A stretch of 64,000 nucleotides of DNA from Bosea sp. 685 (GTDB lineage: Bacteria; Pseudomonadota; Alphaproteobacteria; Rhizobiales; Beijerinckiaceae). Positions 8,193 through 59,377 of the stretch are shown here, piece after piece. The DNA lies in NCBI RefSeq assembly GCF_031884435.1, contig NZ_CP134779.1, positions 2,604,001 through 2,668,000 of the forward strand. The letters are read 5' to 3'. The notes under the pieces are model-generated. The model made no database searches, was not told the origin of the DNA, and worked only from the letters and a program-made list of their open reading frames with translations. The translations under genes were made by a program, and so were the position numbers. The number at the start of each line of letters is the position of its first letter. Position 1 is the stretch's first letter.

Positions 8193-9341
8193 ATGGAATT
8201 CGTAGCGACAATCTGGAATGCGGGTAGCTCCCTGCTGGGCTATGTCGTGCCGTTTCTGTTCGTCCTCGCCATTGTCGTCTTCATCCATGAACTTGGGCAT
8301 TTTCTCGTCGGCCGCTGGTGCGGCGTCGATGTGAAGGTGTTCTCGATCGGCTTCGGCCGCGAGATCTACGGCTTCAACGACAAGCACGGCACGCGCTGGC
8401 GCATCGCCCTGATCCCGCTCGGCGGCTATGTGAAGTTCTCCGGCGACGCCGACGCGTCGAGTGCGCCCGACAATGCCGAAGTCGCGCAGATGACGCCGCA
8501 GGAGCGGGCGCGTTCCTTCCCAGCGCAGTCGATCGGCGAACGAGCCGCCATCGTCGCCGCCGGGCCGATCGCCAATTTCCTGCTCGCGATCTTCATCTTC
8601 GCTGCCACCGTGTTCCTGTTCGGCAAGCAGGTCTTGATCCCAAGGGTCGATCAGGTCGTCGCCGGGGGCGCTGCCGAACGAGCAGGCTTGCAGGCGGGCG
8701 ATCTCGTCGTCGCGATCGACGGCCAGCCGATCGGCAGCTTCAGTGATATGCAGCGCGTCATCTCGGCGCGGCCCAATGAGGTGGTCTCGGTCACCATCGA
8801 ACGCGCCGGCGCCACACTCACGATTCCGGTGACGCCTGCCTTGACCGAGACGAAGTCGCCGCTTGGCAAGCAACGGCTGGGATTCATCGGAGTCCAGGCG
8901 TCGAGCAAGGCAGAGGATTGGAAAGTCCAGCAATTCGGGCCGTTGGAAGCGCTGCGCAACGGCGTCTCCGAGACCTGGTTCGTGGTCAAGCAGACCTATG
9001 ATTACATCGGCAAACTGGTCAGCGGGCGCGAATCGACGGACCAGCTGTCGGGGCCGATCCGGATCGCCCAGGTTTCCGGCCTGGTGGCGTCGAATGGCGG
9101 GTTTCTGGCCCTGATCAACCTGGCGGCGATCCTGTCCGTCTCGATTGGCCTGATGAACCTGCTCCCGGTCCCGATACTCGACGGCGGGCATCTCATGTTT
9201 TACGCGATAGAAACACTTCGCGGCCGGCCGCTCAGTGAACGTGCTCAGGAAATCGGCTTCCGCGTCGGGGCCTGTCTCGTCCTGATGCTGATGCTGTTTG
9301 TAACCTGGAATGACATCCTTCACGTCCGTTCGCAGCTTTGA
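8193..9341 (+). CDS. rseP: RseP-type site-2 membrane metalloprotease
   Basis: This M50 intramembrane protease cleaves anti-sigma factors and remnant signal peptides in envelope stress signalling. It is 382 residues long with four predicted membrane segments. The zinc motif HELGH is at residues 32-36 within the first segment, a PDZ domain is central (VVAGGAAERAGLQAGDLVVAIDG), and the second metal-ligand motif NLLPVPILDGGHL lies in the third segment. E. coli RseP has two PDZ domains; only one is evident here. ATG 8193 follows GGGAG at 8182-8186; two in-frame TTG codons precede it. bamA is next, after 225 bp. Confidence 0.95.
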   Translation: MEFVATIWNAGSSLLGYVVPFLFVLAIVVFIHELGHFLVGRWCGVDVKVFSIGFGREIYGFNDKHGTRWRIALIPLGGYVKFSGDADASSAPDNAEVAQMTPQERARSFPAQSIGERAAIVAAGPIANFLLAIFIFAATVFLFGKQVLIPRVDQVVAGGAAERAGLQAGDLVVAIDGQPIGSFSDMQRVISARPNEVVSVTIERAGATLTIPVTPALTETKSPLGKQRLGFIGVQASSKAEDWKVQQFGPLEALRNGVSETWFVVKQTYDYIGKLVSGRESTDQLSGPIRIAQVSGLVASNGGFLALINLAAILSVSIGLMNLLPVPILDGGHLMFYAIETLRGRPLSERAQEIGFRVGACLVLMLMLFVTWNDILHVRSQL

Positions 9342-9566
9342 CCGGATTTTCACGTCCTGGCCGCGCCGCTTTGCGGCGGAATCGCGGCAGGACGCGTGGC
9401 CTCCTGGCAACGAGGCGCTTAAAAATATTTTGTTAACGACAATGGCGGTTTGCGTCCTGCAGGAAACTTTGTAGAAGCGTTTGGACTGCAATGTCGCCAC
9501 GCCGCTGCCCCTAGGCGGTGGTCCCCGGTTGGGGTGGCGACCCGAGAAAATGGAATAGGCGACCCG

Positions 9567-12086
9567 ATGACGTCGACCCAAAAGAGCCTGTCTTTCAAGC
9601 TGCGGCTCTCTCGATCAGTCGGACTTTCGGCCTTCATGTTGGCCGTAAGCGGTGGCGTGGTGTTTGCGCAGGCCGTGATTGTCCAGGGCAACAGAAGCGT
9701 CGATGCGGAGACGATCCGCTCCTACGCGGCCGGGCAGGGCTCGACTGCCCCGCAGGATATCCGCCAGAATCTGATGGCTACCGGACTGTTCTCCAGCGTG
9801 CAGGTCAGCCGCCGTGGATCGCAGACCGTGATCGCGGTCAGGGAAAACGACACGGTCAATCGTGTCGCCTTCGAGGGTAATCGCCGCCTGAAGAGCGATG
9901 TCCTGCTCCAGCAGGTCCAGTCGAAAGCGCAGGGCCCGATGAGCCAGACGCTGATCGATGCCGACGTTCAGCGTCTGAAGGACGCCTATCGCCGCGCCGG
10001 CTACGGTCTGGCCTCTGTGAGCGGCCGTATCGCTCCGCTGCCGAACGGGCGCTCGGATGTGGTCTTCACCATCGTCGAGAGCGGCAAGACCGGCATCAAA
10101 TCGATCAATTTCAGCGGCAATGGCGTTTACTCGTCGGGTCGTCTGCGCGGTCTGATGACCTCGACCGAGTCGAATTTCCTCAGCTTCATCAAGACCTCGG
10201 ACGTCTATGACGCAGACCGGATCTCCTCCGATCTCGAGCTTGTCCGCCGTTTCTATCTGAAGAACGGCTATGCCGACTTCCAGATCGTCTCGAACAATGC
10301 CCGCTTCGACGAGGCGCAGGGCGGCTGGGTCGTCGACATCGCGGTCGATGAAGGTCAGCAATACCGCGTCGGCAATGTGGCGGTCGATTCCAAGCTGCCC
10401 GACATCGATCCCAATGCGCTGCAGCGCGTCATCGCGACGTCGGCCGGCGATACCTACAACGCCGAGGCGGTCGAGAAGTCGCTGGTGGCTCTGACGACGG
10501 AAGTTTCGCGTCGTGGCTATGCCTTCGCACAGGTTCGTCCGCGCGGCGACCGCGATTCCGCCGGGCGCCAGATCGGTATCACCTATGTCATCGACGAAGG
10601 CCCGCGGGTCTATGTCGAGCGCATCAATGTGCGCGGCAACACCCGTACCCGCGACTATGTCGTGCGCCGCGAGCTCGATCTCGGCGAGGGCGACGCCTAC
10701 AACAAGGTCCTGGTCGACCGCGCAGAGCGCCGCCTGAACAATCTCGGCTTCTTCAGCAAGGTGCGTGTCACCAACGAGCCCGGCTCGACACCTGACCGGG
10801 TCATCGTCAATATCGATGTCGAGGACAAGGCGACCGGTTCGTTCTCTGTCGCCGGCGGTTACTCGACCTCGGACGGCGTCATCGGCGAAGTTTCGCTGTC
10901 GGAGTCGAACTTCCTCGGTCGCGGCCAGTTCGTCCGTATCGCCGGCACGCTCGGCCAGCGCACCCAGGGCGTCGATTTCTCCTTCACGGAGCCGTACTTC
11001 CTCGGCCGCCGGATCGGGGCGGGTTTCGATCTGTTCTCGAAGTTCAACGACAACTACAACACGGGCCGTTTCGAAAGCCGTGTGAATGGCGGACAGGTGC
11101 GCCTGACCTTCCCGATCACGGAAGAGTTTTCGATCACGCCGCGCTATTCGCTCTATACGACCGAGATCACGGTTCCGAACACGGTATCGCGTCCCTATAA
11201 CGACTGCGCCGCGCCGCTGGTCGGCGTTACGCCGGGAACGGATGGGGCGATCGGGGCGGACAGGACCTATAACTGTGTCACCAATGGCGAGGCGACGATC
11301 GCGGTCAAGGAAGCCGTCGGCACCACGCTGACCTCGCTGGTCGGTCTGAACTTCAACTACAACTCGCTCGACAACTACCAGAACCCGCGCAACGGCTTCC
11401 TGGCCGAGATCAAGCCGGAATTCGCTGGCGTCGGCGGTGATTCGAAGTTCCTGCGCGTCGCGGCGGATGCCCGCTATTACCGCGAGATCTTCGACGACGT
11501 CGTCGGCTTCGCTCGTGTGCAGGGTGGCCACGTCCAGGCGACCAGCGGCGATCTGCGCATGATCGACCACTACTTCCTCGGACCGAGCCTGGTGCGCGGC
11601 TTTGCGCCCTCGGGTATCGGCCCGCGCGATATCGGCACGACGCTCAACCCGACCGACCCGACGACCAACGCGCTCGGCGGCACCACCTATTTCGGCGGCA
11701 CGCTCGAAGTGCAGTTCCCGATCTTCGGTTTGCCGCGTGATCTCGGCTTGCGCGGAGCGGTCTTCGCCGACGCCGGCACGCTGTTCAATTACGAGGGCGG
11801 CAACAAGGTGGCCCTGACGGGCTGCCCGTCCGGAACCGAGGCACGTCAGTTCAACGTAGCCTCGAACTCGACGTATCAGAGCAACCTCGCTTGCGTCCGC
11901 GACAAGAATATCATCCGGTCTTCGGTCGGCGTCAGCCTGCTCTGGCAGTCGCCGCTCGGCCCGATCCGCTTCGACTACGCTTACGCCCTGTCGAAGGATG
12001 ACGGCTATCGCGACCCGGCCTCTGGCGTGAAGCTCGGCGGCGACCGGCTGCAGGCCTTCCGCTTCTCCGGCGGCACGCGCTTCTGA
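9567..12086 (+). CDS. bamA: outer membrane protein assembly factor BamA
   Basis: BamA is the core of the BAM complex that folds beta-barrel proteins into the outer membrane. The 839-residue precursor has a signal peptide ending ...VVFAQA near residue 34. Five POTRA domains follow to about residue 430, then a 16-strand barrel with the VRGF-like motif (LVRGFAPSG) on loop 6. It ends in an aromatic residue (SGGTRF), as barrel substrates do. ATG 9567 is chosen over an upstream in-frame start because the signal peptide begins there. Two putative extracellular loops each carry a cysteine pair. skp/ompH, often next to bamA, is absent. Confidence 0.97.
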
Positions 12087-21101: not shown

Positions 21102-23369
21102 GTGCATATGGGACCGTCAGAGCAGATGAAATCACGCGGCGCGCCGGCCGGTGTCCTGCCGTCGCGCCTGCTTGTCTCCTGGCTCGGCATCGGTGCCGGC
21201 CTGACATGGCGGAATTGGCTTGGGCCCGCGCGACAGGCCTTTGCCACCGAGGCGGAGCGCCGGCGGCTCTTCCTCTGGTTCCCGGTCATGATGGGCATCG
21301 GCATTCTGCTCTACTTCGCCGCCGACCGGGAGCCCGCGCTATGGGCGCCGCTTGCTGGCGTCGCGCTTGCAAGCGGCCTCGCCATAGCTCTCCGCCGGCG
21401 GCAGCTCGCTTTGCCGGTTTGCCTTGGGCTGGTTGCGGTCTTCGTCGGTTTCTCGGCGGCGACCTGGCGCACCGCGACGATCATGGCGCCGATCCTGGAT
21501 CGTCCGCGCAGCGGCCAGCTCACCGGTTATGTCGAATCCGTCGAGACGCGCGATGCTGGCGCCAGGCTCGTCGTGCTGGTGACCGGGATAGCAGGCGTCG
21601 ATCCGGAGAGGCGGCCCAAGCGCGTTCGCGTCAACATCAAGGCGGAGACTGTCGCGCCGGGAGACCACATCACGGCCAATGCGCGCCTTCTGCCGCCGCC
21701 TGGTCCGGCGCGACCGGGCGGCTATGATTTCGGCCGCGACGCGTTCTTTCGCGGCATCGGCGCGGTCGGCAACATCCCCGGCAAGATCATGCTGACGCCG
21801 GCGCCGGGCCCGCCTCCGCCTGAACTCGCGAGAGCTGTGCTGATCGACCGTGCCCGCAACGCCCTGACCGCCCGCATCGCCAGCGTCGGCGGCGGGCAGG
21901 CCGGCGCGATGGCGGCGGCGCTGGTGACCGGCAAGCGCGGCCTGATCACGGAAACGACCAATGCCGACCTGCGTGCGGCGGGCATCTACCACGTCGTCTC
22001 GATCTCGGGCCTGCACATGGTGCTCGCCGCCGGCACGATCCTCTGGCTGGTGCGGGCGCTGCTGGCGCTCTCGCAGGCGCTGGCCTTGCATTGGCCGATC
22101 AAGAAGATTGCCGCCGTTGCCGCCATGATCGGAGCAACCGCCTATTGCGTCTTCTCCGGCTCCGATGTCGCAACCGTCAGGTCATTGATCATGACGCTGG
22201 TGATGCTCGGCGCAATCCTGATCGACCGCCCGGCGCTGAGCATGCGCAACCTTGCCTTGGCGGCCATCATCGTCTTGCTGCGCGAGCCCGACGCACTGCT
22301 CGGGCCGAGCTTCCAGATGTCATTCGGGGCGGTCGCGGCGCTCATCGCCTTTGCCGAGCGCTGGGACGAACGCAATCAGACCGCGCCGCCATCGCCGTGG
22401 CCCTGGCCGCTGCGCCCACTCTGGATCGCCGCCAGCGGCACCGTCATCACGACCTTGCTGGCGACGGCGGCGACGGCCCCGTTCGGCGCTTATCATTTCC
22501 AGACCTTCAATCCGTTCGGGCTGCTCGGCAATGCGCTCGCCTTGCCCTTCGTCTCGCTGTTCGTGATGCCGGCTGCGGTGTTCGGCGTGCTGGCCTACCC
22601 ATTCGGCCTCGACTGGCCGGCCTGGTGGCTGATGGGGGCGGCATCCGAGGTCGTGCTGCGGCTGGCCCACTGGGTCGCGGCGATCGACCACTCGACGCTG
22701 ATCATTCCCGCCTTTGGCGAGGCCGCGCTGGTCTGCCTTGCGATGACACTGCTCTGGCTGACGCTGTGGAGCACGAAGCTTCGGCTGCTCGCCATCGTGC
22801 CGCTGGTGATGGGCGTCACGGTCGCGGCCAAGCCGGACCGGCCGGATATCGTCATCGAACGCGACGGTTCCGGCCTCGTCGTGCGCGGACACGACGACCG
22901 TTTCATCCTGGCAGGCCGGCCAAGCAGCTTCGTGCTGCAACAATGGCTCACCGCCGATGGCGATGGGCGGCAGCCCACGGATGAGAGCCTGCGTAAGAAT
23001 GCAGCATGCGATGCGCAAGGCTGTGTCATCACCGCCCGCAATGGTCGCCGGATCGCTTATGCGAAAGACCGGCTCGCCGTCATCGAAGATTGCCTGCGCG
23101 CCGATCTCGTCGTCACGCCGATACCCTGGTCGGCTCCTTGCGCAGCGAAGCTGGTCGACCGGATGGCCCTGAACCGCGACGGCGCGACCTCCCTCATCGG
23201 CAGTGCAGGCGGCTGGCGCGTGGTCCAGGCAGAACGGCAGGATGCCGATCGCCCTTGGATGCGCAAACGCGCGGCGACAGGCCCAAAGCCCGCGCAGCCG
23301 CCGCCTGCGCGGCAGCCGGAGAGGAGCGATACGGGTGAAGTGGCAGCCGAGCCCGACCGGCTTCAGTAG
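21102..23369 (+). CDS. comEC: ComEC/Rec2-family competence membrane protein
   Basis: ComEC forms the inner-membrane channel for single-stranded DNA uptake. The 755-residue protein has N-terminal membrane segments and a DUF4131 OB-like region ([32 protein letters not shown]). The Competence-domain signature [13 protein letters not shown] near residue 300 is followed by a block of membrane helices. The C-terminal soluble part lacks a recognisable HxHxDH metallo-beta-lactamase motif, so any nuclease activity is doubtful. Start is GTG 21102 or ATG 21108, after AAGGGG. Its 3' end overlaps the lexA 3' end by 7 bp (convergent). Confidence 0.93.
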
Positions 23370-24081
23370 CGCCGCATCAGATTGACCAACCGGCCCTGGA
23401 TCTTGACCCGATCGGGGCCGAGCACACGGGTTTCGTAAGCGGGGTTTGCGGCTTCAAGCGCGATCGATGAGCCACGTTTGCGCAGGCGCTTCAGCGTCGC
23501 CTCCTCGTCATCGATCAGCGCCACGATGATGTCGCCGGTATTGGCCGTGTCCTGCCGGCGGATGACCACGGTGTCGCCGTCGAGAATGCCGGCCTCGACC
23601 ATCGAATCGCCGCGCACCTCAAGCGCGAAATGCTCGCCGGCACCGAGCATGTCCGCCGGCAGCGCCACAGTGTGGCTGCGGTTCTGGATCGCTGAGATCG
23701 GTGTGCCGGCGGCGATCCGCCCCATCACCGGGATTGCGATCGTGGCCCGCGCATCCTCTTCGGGACCAGGCGCCGGGCGCGCCTTGCCGAGGCCGCCGCT
23801 CTGGCCGAGGCCGCCTTGAACGATGGAGGGGCTGAAGGCGCGCGCGCGCCCTGTGGCGTGCCGACGCCGTCGGGAAGCTTGATCACCTCCAGCGCCCGGG
23901 CGCGATTGGGCAGCCGGCGAATGAAGCCGCGCTCCTCCAATGCCATGATCAGGCGATGAATGCCGGATTTCGAGCGGAGATCGAGCGCGTCCTTCATTTC
24001 GTCGAAGGAGGGCGGCACCCCGCTTTCACGCAGGCGTTCCTGGATGAAGCGGAGCAATTCGAATTGTTTGCGTGTCAGCAT
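23363..24081 (-). pseudogene. lexA: SOS repressor LexA, interrupted by a frameshift
   Basis: LexA represses DNA-damage genes and self-cleaves with RecA. The N-terminal winged helix ([38 protein letters not shown]) and the C-terminal S24 peptidase domain are both present. The latter has cleavage site AAG in [10 protein letters not shown], Ser in GDSMVEAG and Lys in ATLKRL. They are in different frames. The break falls in a (GC)6 run at 23838-23849; removing one GC (or adding one base) restores a 238-residue LexA whose linker reads [14 protein letters not shown]. As given, the first frame stops at 23725 after 118 residues. It may be an assembly error, a real mutation or slippage-prone expression. 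Confidence 0.85.
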
Positions 24082-24136: not shown

Positions 24137-24151
24137 GTTCGTGTTGTGTTC
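24137..24151 (-). promoter_or_regulatory. SOS box (LexA operator) upstream of lexA
   Basis: GTTC-GTGTTGT-GTTC on the plus strand (GAAC-N7-GAAC toward lexA) is the exact direct-repeat operator known for alphaproteobacterial LexA. It lies 55 bp upstream of the lexA ATG and 11 bp after the moeA stop, so lexA has its own autoregulated promoter inside the moeA-lexA gap. Confidence 0.88.
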
Positions 24152-58234: not shown

Positions 58235-59284
58235 TTATAAGCCATAACGTTCCGCAAGTGCCGGGTCGCGTCCAGCGACTTGTTTCGCCAGATCGACGAT
58301 GACCTTGGCCTGTTTCCAGGTCGCGTCGTCCTGCATCTTGCCGTCGATCATCACAGCGCCGGAGCCATTCGGCATCGCCTCCAGGATGCGCTTGGCAAAG
58401 GCGACCTCGGCGGGATCGGGGCTGAAGACGCGTTTGGCGATTTCGATCTGCGAGGGATGCAATGTCCAGGCGCCCGAGCAGCCGAGCAGGAAAGCGTTGC
58501 GAAACTGAGCCTCGCAGGCGGCCGTATCGGCGAAGTCGCCGAAGGGACCGTAGAATGGCTTGATGCCGGCCGCCGCGCAGGCATCGACCATCTTGGCGAG
58601 CGTGTAATGCCAGAGATCCTGCTGGGCGACGGCGCGCGCGGCGCCATCCGTCGTGGGATCCGCGATGACCTTGTATTCCGGATGGCCTCCGCCGACGCGC
58701 GTCGTCTTCATCGCGCGCGAAGCCGCGAGATCGGCCGGCCCCAGGCTCATCCCATGCATGCGCGGGGAGGCGGTTGCGATCGTATCGACATTCTTCACAC
58801 CCTCGGCGGTCTCGAGGATGGCGTGGATCATGATCGGCTTGGGCAGGTTGTGCCGGGCCTCGAATTGGGCCAGCAGCTGGTCGACATAATGGATGTCCCA
58901 TGGCCCCTCGACCTTGGGCACCATCACGACATCGAGCTTGCCGCCGATCTCCGCCATGATCGCGGTGATATCGTCGAGGAACCAGGGCGAGTTCAGCGCG
59001 TTCACCCGCGTCCACAGCCCGGTCTTGCCGAAATCGACGGCTTTGCCCATCGCGATGAAGCCGTTGCGCGCCGCCTGCTTCGCCTCGACGGGAATGGCGT
59101 CCTCCAGGTTGCCGAGCACGATATCGACCTGGCCCGCGAGCTCACCGACCTTGGCACGCACCTTCTCGAGATGCGGCGGCACGAAATGGATCATCCGTTC
59201 CAATTTCAGCGGGAGCTCGCGGAACGGCTCCGGCGCGCCGATGGCGAGCGGACGGAAGAACTGGCGCGGCGTCTTGACGGTCAT
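58235..59284 (-). CDS. HpcH/HpaI-family CoA-ester lyase (malyl-CoA lyase-like)
   Basis: The 349-residue TIM-barrel protein resembles L-malyl-CoA/beta-methylmalyl-CoA lyases, which split malyl-CoA to acetyl-CoA and glyoxylate. Visible: [19 protein letters not shown] (acidic metal ligands), [45 protein letters not shown] and [13 protein letters not shown], the last typical of CitE-like lyases. In serine-cycle methylotrophs this is Mcl, but no serine-cycle genes adjoin, so the substrate is only inferred. It is divergent from an AEC carrier and a CoA-transferase gene across a region holding a pair of dyad sites. Confidence 0.88.
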
Positions 59285-59377
59285 GGCGAGGCTCCATGGT
59301 GCAATGCAGCGACTGTGCCGAAGGTCGCCAATCCCGTCCATCGTCCATTATGTGTGCAGGGTAAGGTGGAGATTTAT

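Follow-up and report, generated by a model that had tools for sequence, protein, structure and literature searches.

Is lexA of Bosea sp. 685 broken in the organism, or only in its assembly? The DNA that we studied, called the window here, is a stretch of 64,000 nucleotides (G000:C2:2604001-2668000) in the chromosome contig, 6,582,294 bases long, of an assembly that comprises two contigs and 6,795,213 bases in total. In this window lexA lies on the minus strand, from 24081 to 23363, with its helix-turn-helix (HTH) domain and its S24 protease domain in different frames. An earlier note on this DNA had offered three explanations: a consensus error, a true lexA-null strain, or slippage-based expression of a free HTH repressor fragment. 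We consider it likely that the split is a residual one-nucleotide consensus error in the assembly. The likelihoods attached here to this and to three other readings are matters of judgement and were not computed.

The two pieces of lexA and their operator

The first frame runs on the minus strand from an ATG at 24081 to a TGA at 23727-23725. Its 118 codons (23725..24081; frame translation and Pfam) encode a winged-HTH domain followed by an out-of-frame basic tail, and residues 2-63 match Pfam LexA_DNA_bind (PF01726) with an E-value of 9.9e-17, as a LexA winged HTH does. The C-terminal piece, in the other frame of the same strand (23363..23728), contains a complete S24 autoprotease domain (Pfam Peptidase_S24, PF00717, E 1.5e-32). 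In its translation an Ala-Gly motif, the Ser in GDSM and the Lys in ATLK can be seen by eye, and we take their roles to be those of the equivalent residues in E. coli LexA. When scored against the NCBIfam lexA model TIGR00498 (cut-off 110.95 bits), the N-terminal piece falls below the cut-off with 56.7 bits and the C-terminal piece exceeds it with 119.1 bits, as compared to 179.2 bits for the LexA of an intact relative; a single frame encoding the whole protein is thus not found. These results bear out the earlier description of a gene divided between two frames with both of its domains complete.

The SOS operator, which had been called intact, is so: a pattern match finds GTTC-N7-GTTC at 24137..24151, 56-70 nt upstream of the lexA start codon. 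The same pattern occurs within 160 nt of the lexA start in all 36 Bosea upstream regions compared (35 relatives and Bosea sp. 685), so that, as far as sequence can tell, the gene has the upstream operator expected of an autoregulated lexA. LexA sites in alphaproteobacteria are treated in the part of PMC6473078 available to us. Two further genes of the expected regulon carry the pattern. recA lies in a 365-residue open frame with a GTTC-N7-GTTC about 0.14 kb upstream of the matched domain (G000:C2:1787392-1787406), and ssb is preceded by one that lies 73-87 nt before its listed start codon (G000:C2:2205711-2205725; L246 1711-1725). Both of these sites have a T-rich spacer, and from their sequence and position they are probably SOS operators. 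Genome-wide, the plain pattern shows no enrichment (129 matches vs 152 for the control), and the assessment of operators was accordingly confined to lexA, recA and ssb.

A second intact lexA elsewhere, which the earlier note had named as a finding that would lower the impact of the split, was looked for genome-wide and not found: the only LexA DNA-binding domain detected in the whole genome is that of lexA itself. A genome search with the LexA of an intact relative returned the two lexA halves and one distant S24 protein (around G000:C2:5001983; L226 1486-2115, minus strand). This protein was excluded as a second LexA, having no match to PF01726. It is a 209-residue member of the S24 family whose N-terminal part matched no Pfam model, and by its sequence it looks like a second autoprotease regulator of the LexA/CI type.

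The break and the intact genes of relatives

The earlier note had suggested a comparison with lexA of close relatives. The three nearest relatives (G001, G008 and G020) are 94.4-94.8% identical to Bosea sp. 685 over 362-388 kb aligned and syntenic with it across the window. In each of them lexA measures 720 nt including the stop codon, vs 719 nt here. The alignments place the missing nucleotide at a 12-nt alternation of G and C (23838-23849), contained in a self-complementary G/C stretch (23837..23850). The tract is interrupted in all three relatives, and among the four genomes the pure run occurs only in Bosea sp. 685. The position of the break had been read correctly, with the alternation and the alignments in agreement. 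Of the two repairs named in the earlier note, however, the removal of one GC finds no backing in the relatives, from which lexA here differs by a deficit of one nucleotide. This repair would yield a protein of 238 residues that lacks the arginine preceding the linker Phe, a residue found by eye in 35 of 35 Bosea relatives.

An undivided gene is the rule in the genus. In 35 of 36 congeneric genomes the LexA match lies in an open frame of at least 243 residues; the exception, G032, has a short LexA match in a 63-residue frame. The closest named relatives of the protein are from Bosea, and the four LexA proteins that we read from a protein search (among the 120 best of 7998 scored candidates) were all intact, none of them being known to come from the same species as Bosea sp. 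685. We also examined the substitutions that separate lexA from its counterparts in the three nearest relatives. Third positions account for 13 of 16 before the break and for 34 of 43 after it; the bias holds on each side and exceeds what chance would give. Substitutions private to Bosea sp. 685 comprise eight synonymous and one nonsynonymous, the latter in the linker, and within the S24 domain there are four synonymous and none nonsynonymous. At the level of sequence, neither half of lexA has decayed. The break is therefore either very recent or absent from the organism.

Frameshifts elsewhere in the assembly

A first survey of frameshifts, by tblastn of long ORFs, was dropped: in a genome so rich in G+C, shadow ORFs dominated its results. 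The surveys that replaced it used only ORFs with a third-position substitution bias. The strict survey covered 464 kb, in which 287, 299 and 297 genes were testable from the three relatives. It yielded 28 frame-switch groups in Bosea sp. 685, ten of them backed by at least two relatives; eight of these ten were set aside, one side lacking coding bias, which left two private internal frameshifts, in lexA and mltG, each seen against all three relatives. mltG encodes an endolytic transglycosylase (named by TIGR00247 and PF02618) and is one nucleotide short in mid-gene at G000:C2:2574038 (L152), outside the window. Under the same rule 1 of 6 groups was left in G020, 2 of 5 in G008 and 2 of 7 in G001, that is, one, two and two internal frameshifts. 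Consequently, the frameshift rate alone does not mark the assembly as poor. A laxer survey, of 864 kb and 427 genes against G020 alone, found ten frame switches in nine genes here and three in 431 genes in G020. The clear cases were mltG, lexA and aspS; a fourth switch, unpolarised, puts the C-terminal third of a GNAT acetyltransferase gene (G000:C2:2994270, L233) in a different frame from that of G020, and in the other six one side was short or weakly coding.

Measures of overall quality point the same way. Private isolated indels of 1-2 nt number 18 here vs 18, 10 and 11 in G020, G008 and G001, and of the 13 comparable G/C runs that reach at least 10 nt in the 464 kb, the 12 besides that of lexA all match the relatives in length. 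Thus, neither a raised load of small indels nor systematic faults in similar runs were found in the DNA surveyed. The spectra of G/C homopolymers, drawn up as a check for undercalling, were given no weight as evidence: runs of five have a frequency 14-22% below that of the relatives (456 per Mb vs 532, 533 and 585), while runs of six (75 vs 87, 87 and 69) and of seven (7.5 vs 7.9, 8.9 and 11.4) are not clearly depleted. All in all the assembly is good, and any errors left in it should be few. One more private difference lies within the window, at 59313, where one nucleotide is extra relative to all three relatives, 35 nt inside their longest frame of the gene at 58235-59348; it may be upstream of that gene's true start.

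The break in aspS serves to calibrate the assembly. This gene, for aspartate--tRNA ligase (AspRS; identified by NF001750 and TIGR00459), occupies G000:C2:3036660-3038428 (L235, about 8660-10428) and lies outside the window. A difference of one nucleotide at G000:C2:3037057, beside a run of six G, divides it between two frames. The genome has no AspRS match other than the two halves of aspS, whose open frames comprise 503 and 230 residues. aspS is normally indispensable, and cells lacking AspRS would not be expected to grow. The relatives searched numbered 36, including 22 Bosea, and in every one of them the AspRS match falls in a single long frame (597-696 residues); one internal TAA is reported in the aspS of G048, a genome of another family. 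The G run in aspS ends in a -1 slippery heptamer that, read by eye, is in register, and frameshift suppression in an essential gene has a precedent in E. coli rpoB, according to the portion of PMC7022156 available to us. This heptamer may conceivably allow suppression of the aspS frameshift, which slightly weakens the use of aspS as a calibration. Letters resembling CC(A/T)GG adjoin the mltG and aspS breaks, and not that of lexA (L152, L235; read by eye); at mltG and aspS they may hint at base-calling faults linked to methylation.

Readings of the split and known systems

A consensus error is the likeliest reading because an indispensable single-copy gene, aspS, is broken likewise in the same assembly, and this makes it the best supported of the three options in the earlier note. 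It is further favoured by the deficit of just one nucleotide, by the kept operator, by the lack of decay in lexA and by the full-length frame in 35 of 36 congeners. The strain would then carry an ordinary, intact and autoregulated lexA, and one nucleotide would have been lost from the consensus in the linker of LexA, at the self-complementary stretch of alternating G and C, presumably during sequencing or polishing. According to the accessible part of PMC11017572, many single-frameshift pseudogenes of public bacterial genomes are assembly errors. Counted against this reading are the normal indel load and normal G/C runs, strict-rule frameshifts at the level of the relatives, and the possible suppression in aspS. 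On balance the split is likeliest an ordinary fault and not a real feature, unless the reads differ.

It is also conceivable, and in our judgement unlikely, that Bosea sp. 685 is a genuine and very recent lexA-null strain, in which the linker has lost one nucleotide, so that translation stops after 118 codons and the SOS regulon is on without DNA damage. An HTH fragment is a poor repressor when the S24 dimerisation domain is missing; repression by the 118-residue product should therefore fail, given that this domain is absent from it. The genome fits a null strain in several respects: the assembly looks sound for the most part, the frame of recA is open, recA and ssb each lie downstream of a GTTC-N7-GTTC, which provides a regulon to derepress, and no second LexA DNA-binding domain could stand in. 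Nor would viability alone exclude a null, since ΔlexA strains of Caulobacter are viable, being filamentous unless sidA is removed, in the part of PMC13384398 that we could consult. Opposed to it are an S24 domain free of decay, the full-length frames of 35 of 36 congeners and a corollary: taken at its word, the assembly would leave the strain without AspRS as well. What a null would amount to, with the same low probability, is a natural Bosea that has recently lost LexA and still grows with an unrepressed SOS response, its lexA operator, recA and ssb intact and its S24 piece possibly re-initiated.

A third reading, that a working LexA is made in split or recoded form, through a frame change in the linker or through re-initiation, so that HTH and S24 pieces are both produced, is in our opinion very improbable. 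It draws on the integrity of both pieces, on the overlap of their open frames for about 300 nt, and on the stop of the first frame, which overlaps an ATG in the S24 frame (TGATG, 23723..23727, minus strand; from the sequence and the stop positions) and makes this overlap a possible point of re-initiation for the S24 piece. However, the three intact relatives share these letters and read them in frame as ordinary coding sequence, and with a separately made S24 piece the HTH would still be unlinked to its dimerisation domain. Programmed -1 frameshifting was rejected as well: in the part scanned, the sole heptamer of the form XXXYYYN is out of register, and the first 360 nt of the gene contain no homopolymer of five or more. 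For these reasons, and given a difference of one nucleotide and the absence of a pure run from the three relatives, the slippage option of the earlier note, in which a free HTH fragment is expressed, is not supported. Finally, a reversible switch in which gain or loss of a GC unit turns lexA on and off, as at a contingency locus, has in its favour the 12-nt dinucleotide run at the break and next to no likelihood, the difference from the three nearest relatives being one nucleotide and not a unit of two, the run being interrupted in G001, G008 and G020, and the 12 other comparable G/C runs (10-12 nt, over 464 kb) being equal in length to those of the relatives; the tract was thus rejected as a phase-variable repeat.

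The two leading readings differ in what they imply. If the frameshift is real, Bosea sp. 685 would be a natural alphaproteobacterium with constitutive SOS expression, raising the question of how a free-living bacterium tolerates it permanently and with what effect on mutation rate. If it is a consensus error, the case is a warning: read plainly, this assembly describes a bacterium without LexA, MltG and AspRS, and with the last of these losses it should not be viable.

Three comparisons place the locus. The engineered ΔlexA Caulobacter crescentus, as presented in the available portion of PMC13384398, is what a real null would resemble, a viable alphaproteobacterium without LexA; it differs in that its deletion was engineered and its filamentation runs through SidA, whereas Bosea sp. 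685 is known here from sequence. With the LexA orthologues of other Bosea (e.g. that of Bosea psychrotolerans, P0001) the gene shares the same two domains and a GTTC-N7-GTTC operator upstream, and its private substitutions are nearly all synonymous; unlike theirs, its domains are not in one frame and it has 719 nt instead of 720. The spurious single-frameshift pseudogenes, as described in the accessible text of PMC11017572, differ from Bosea sp. 685 in that its overall indel load is not above that of its relatives. Like them, lexA here is conserved apart from one small indel, which lies in a G/C-rich repetitive context, and the assembly of Bosea sp. 685 also breaks an indispensable gene.
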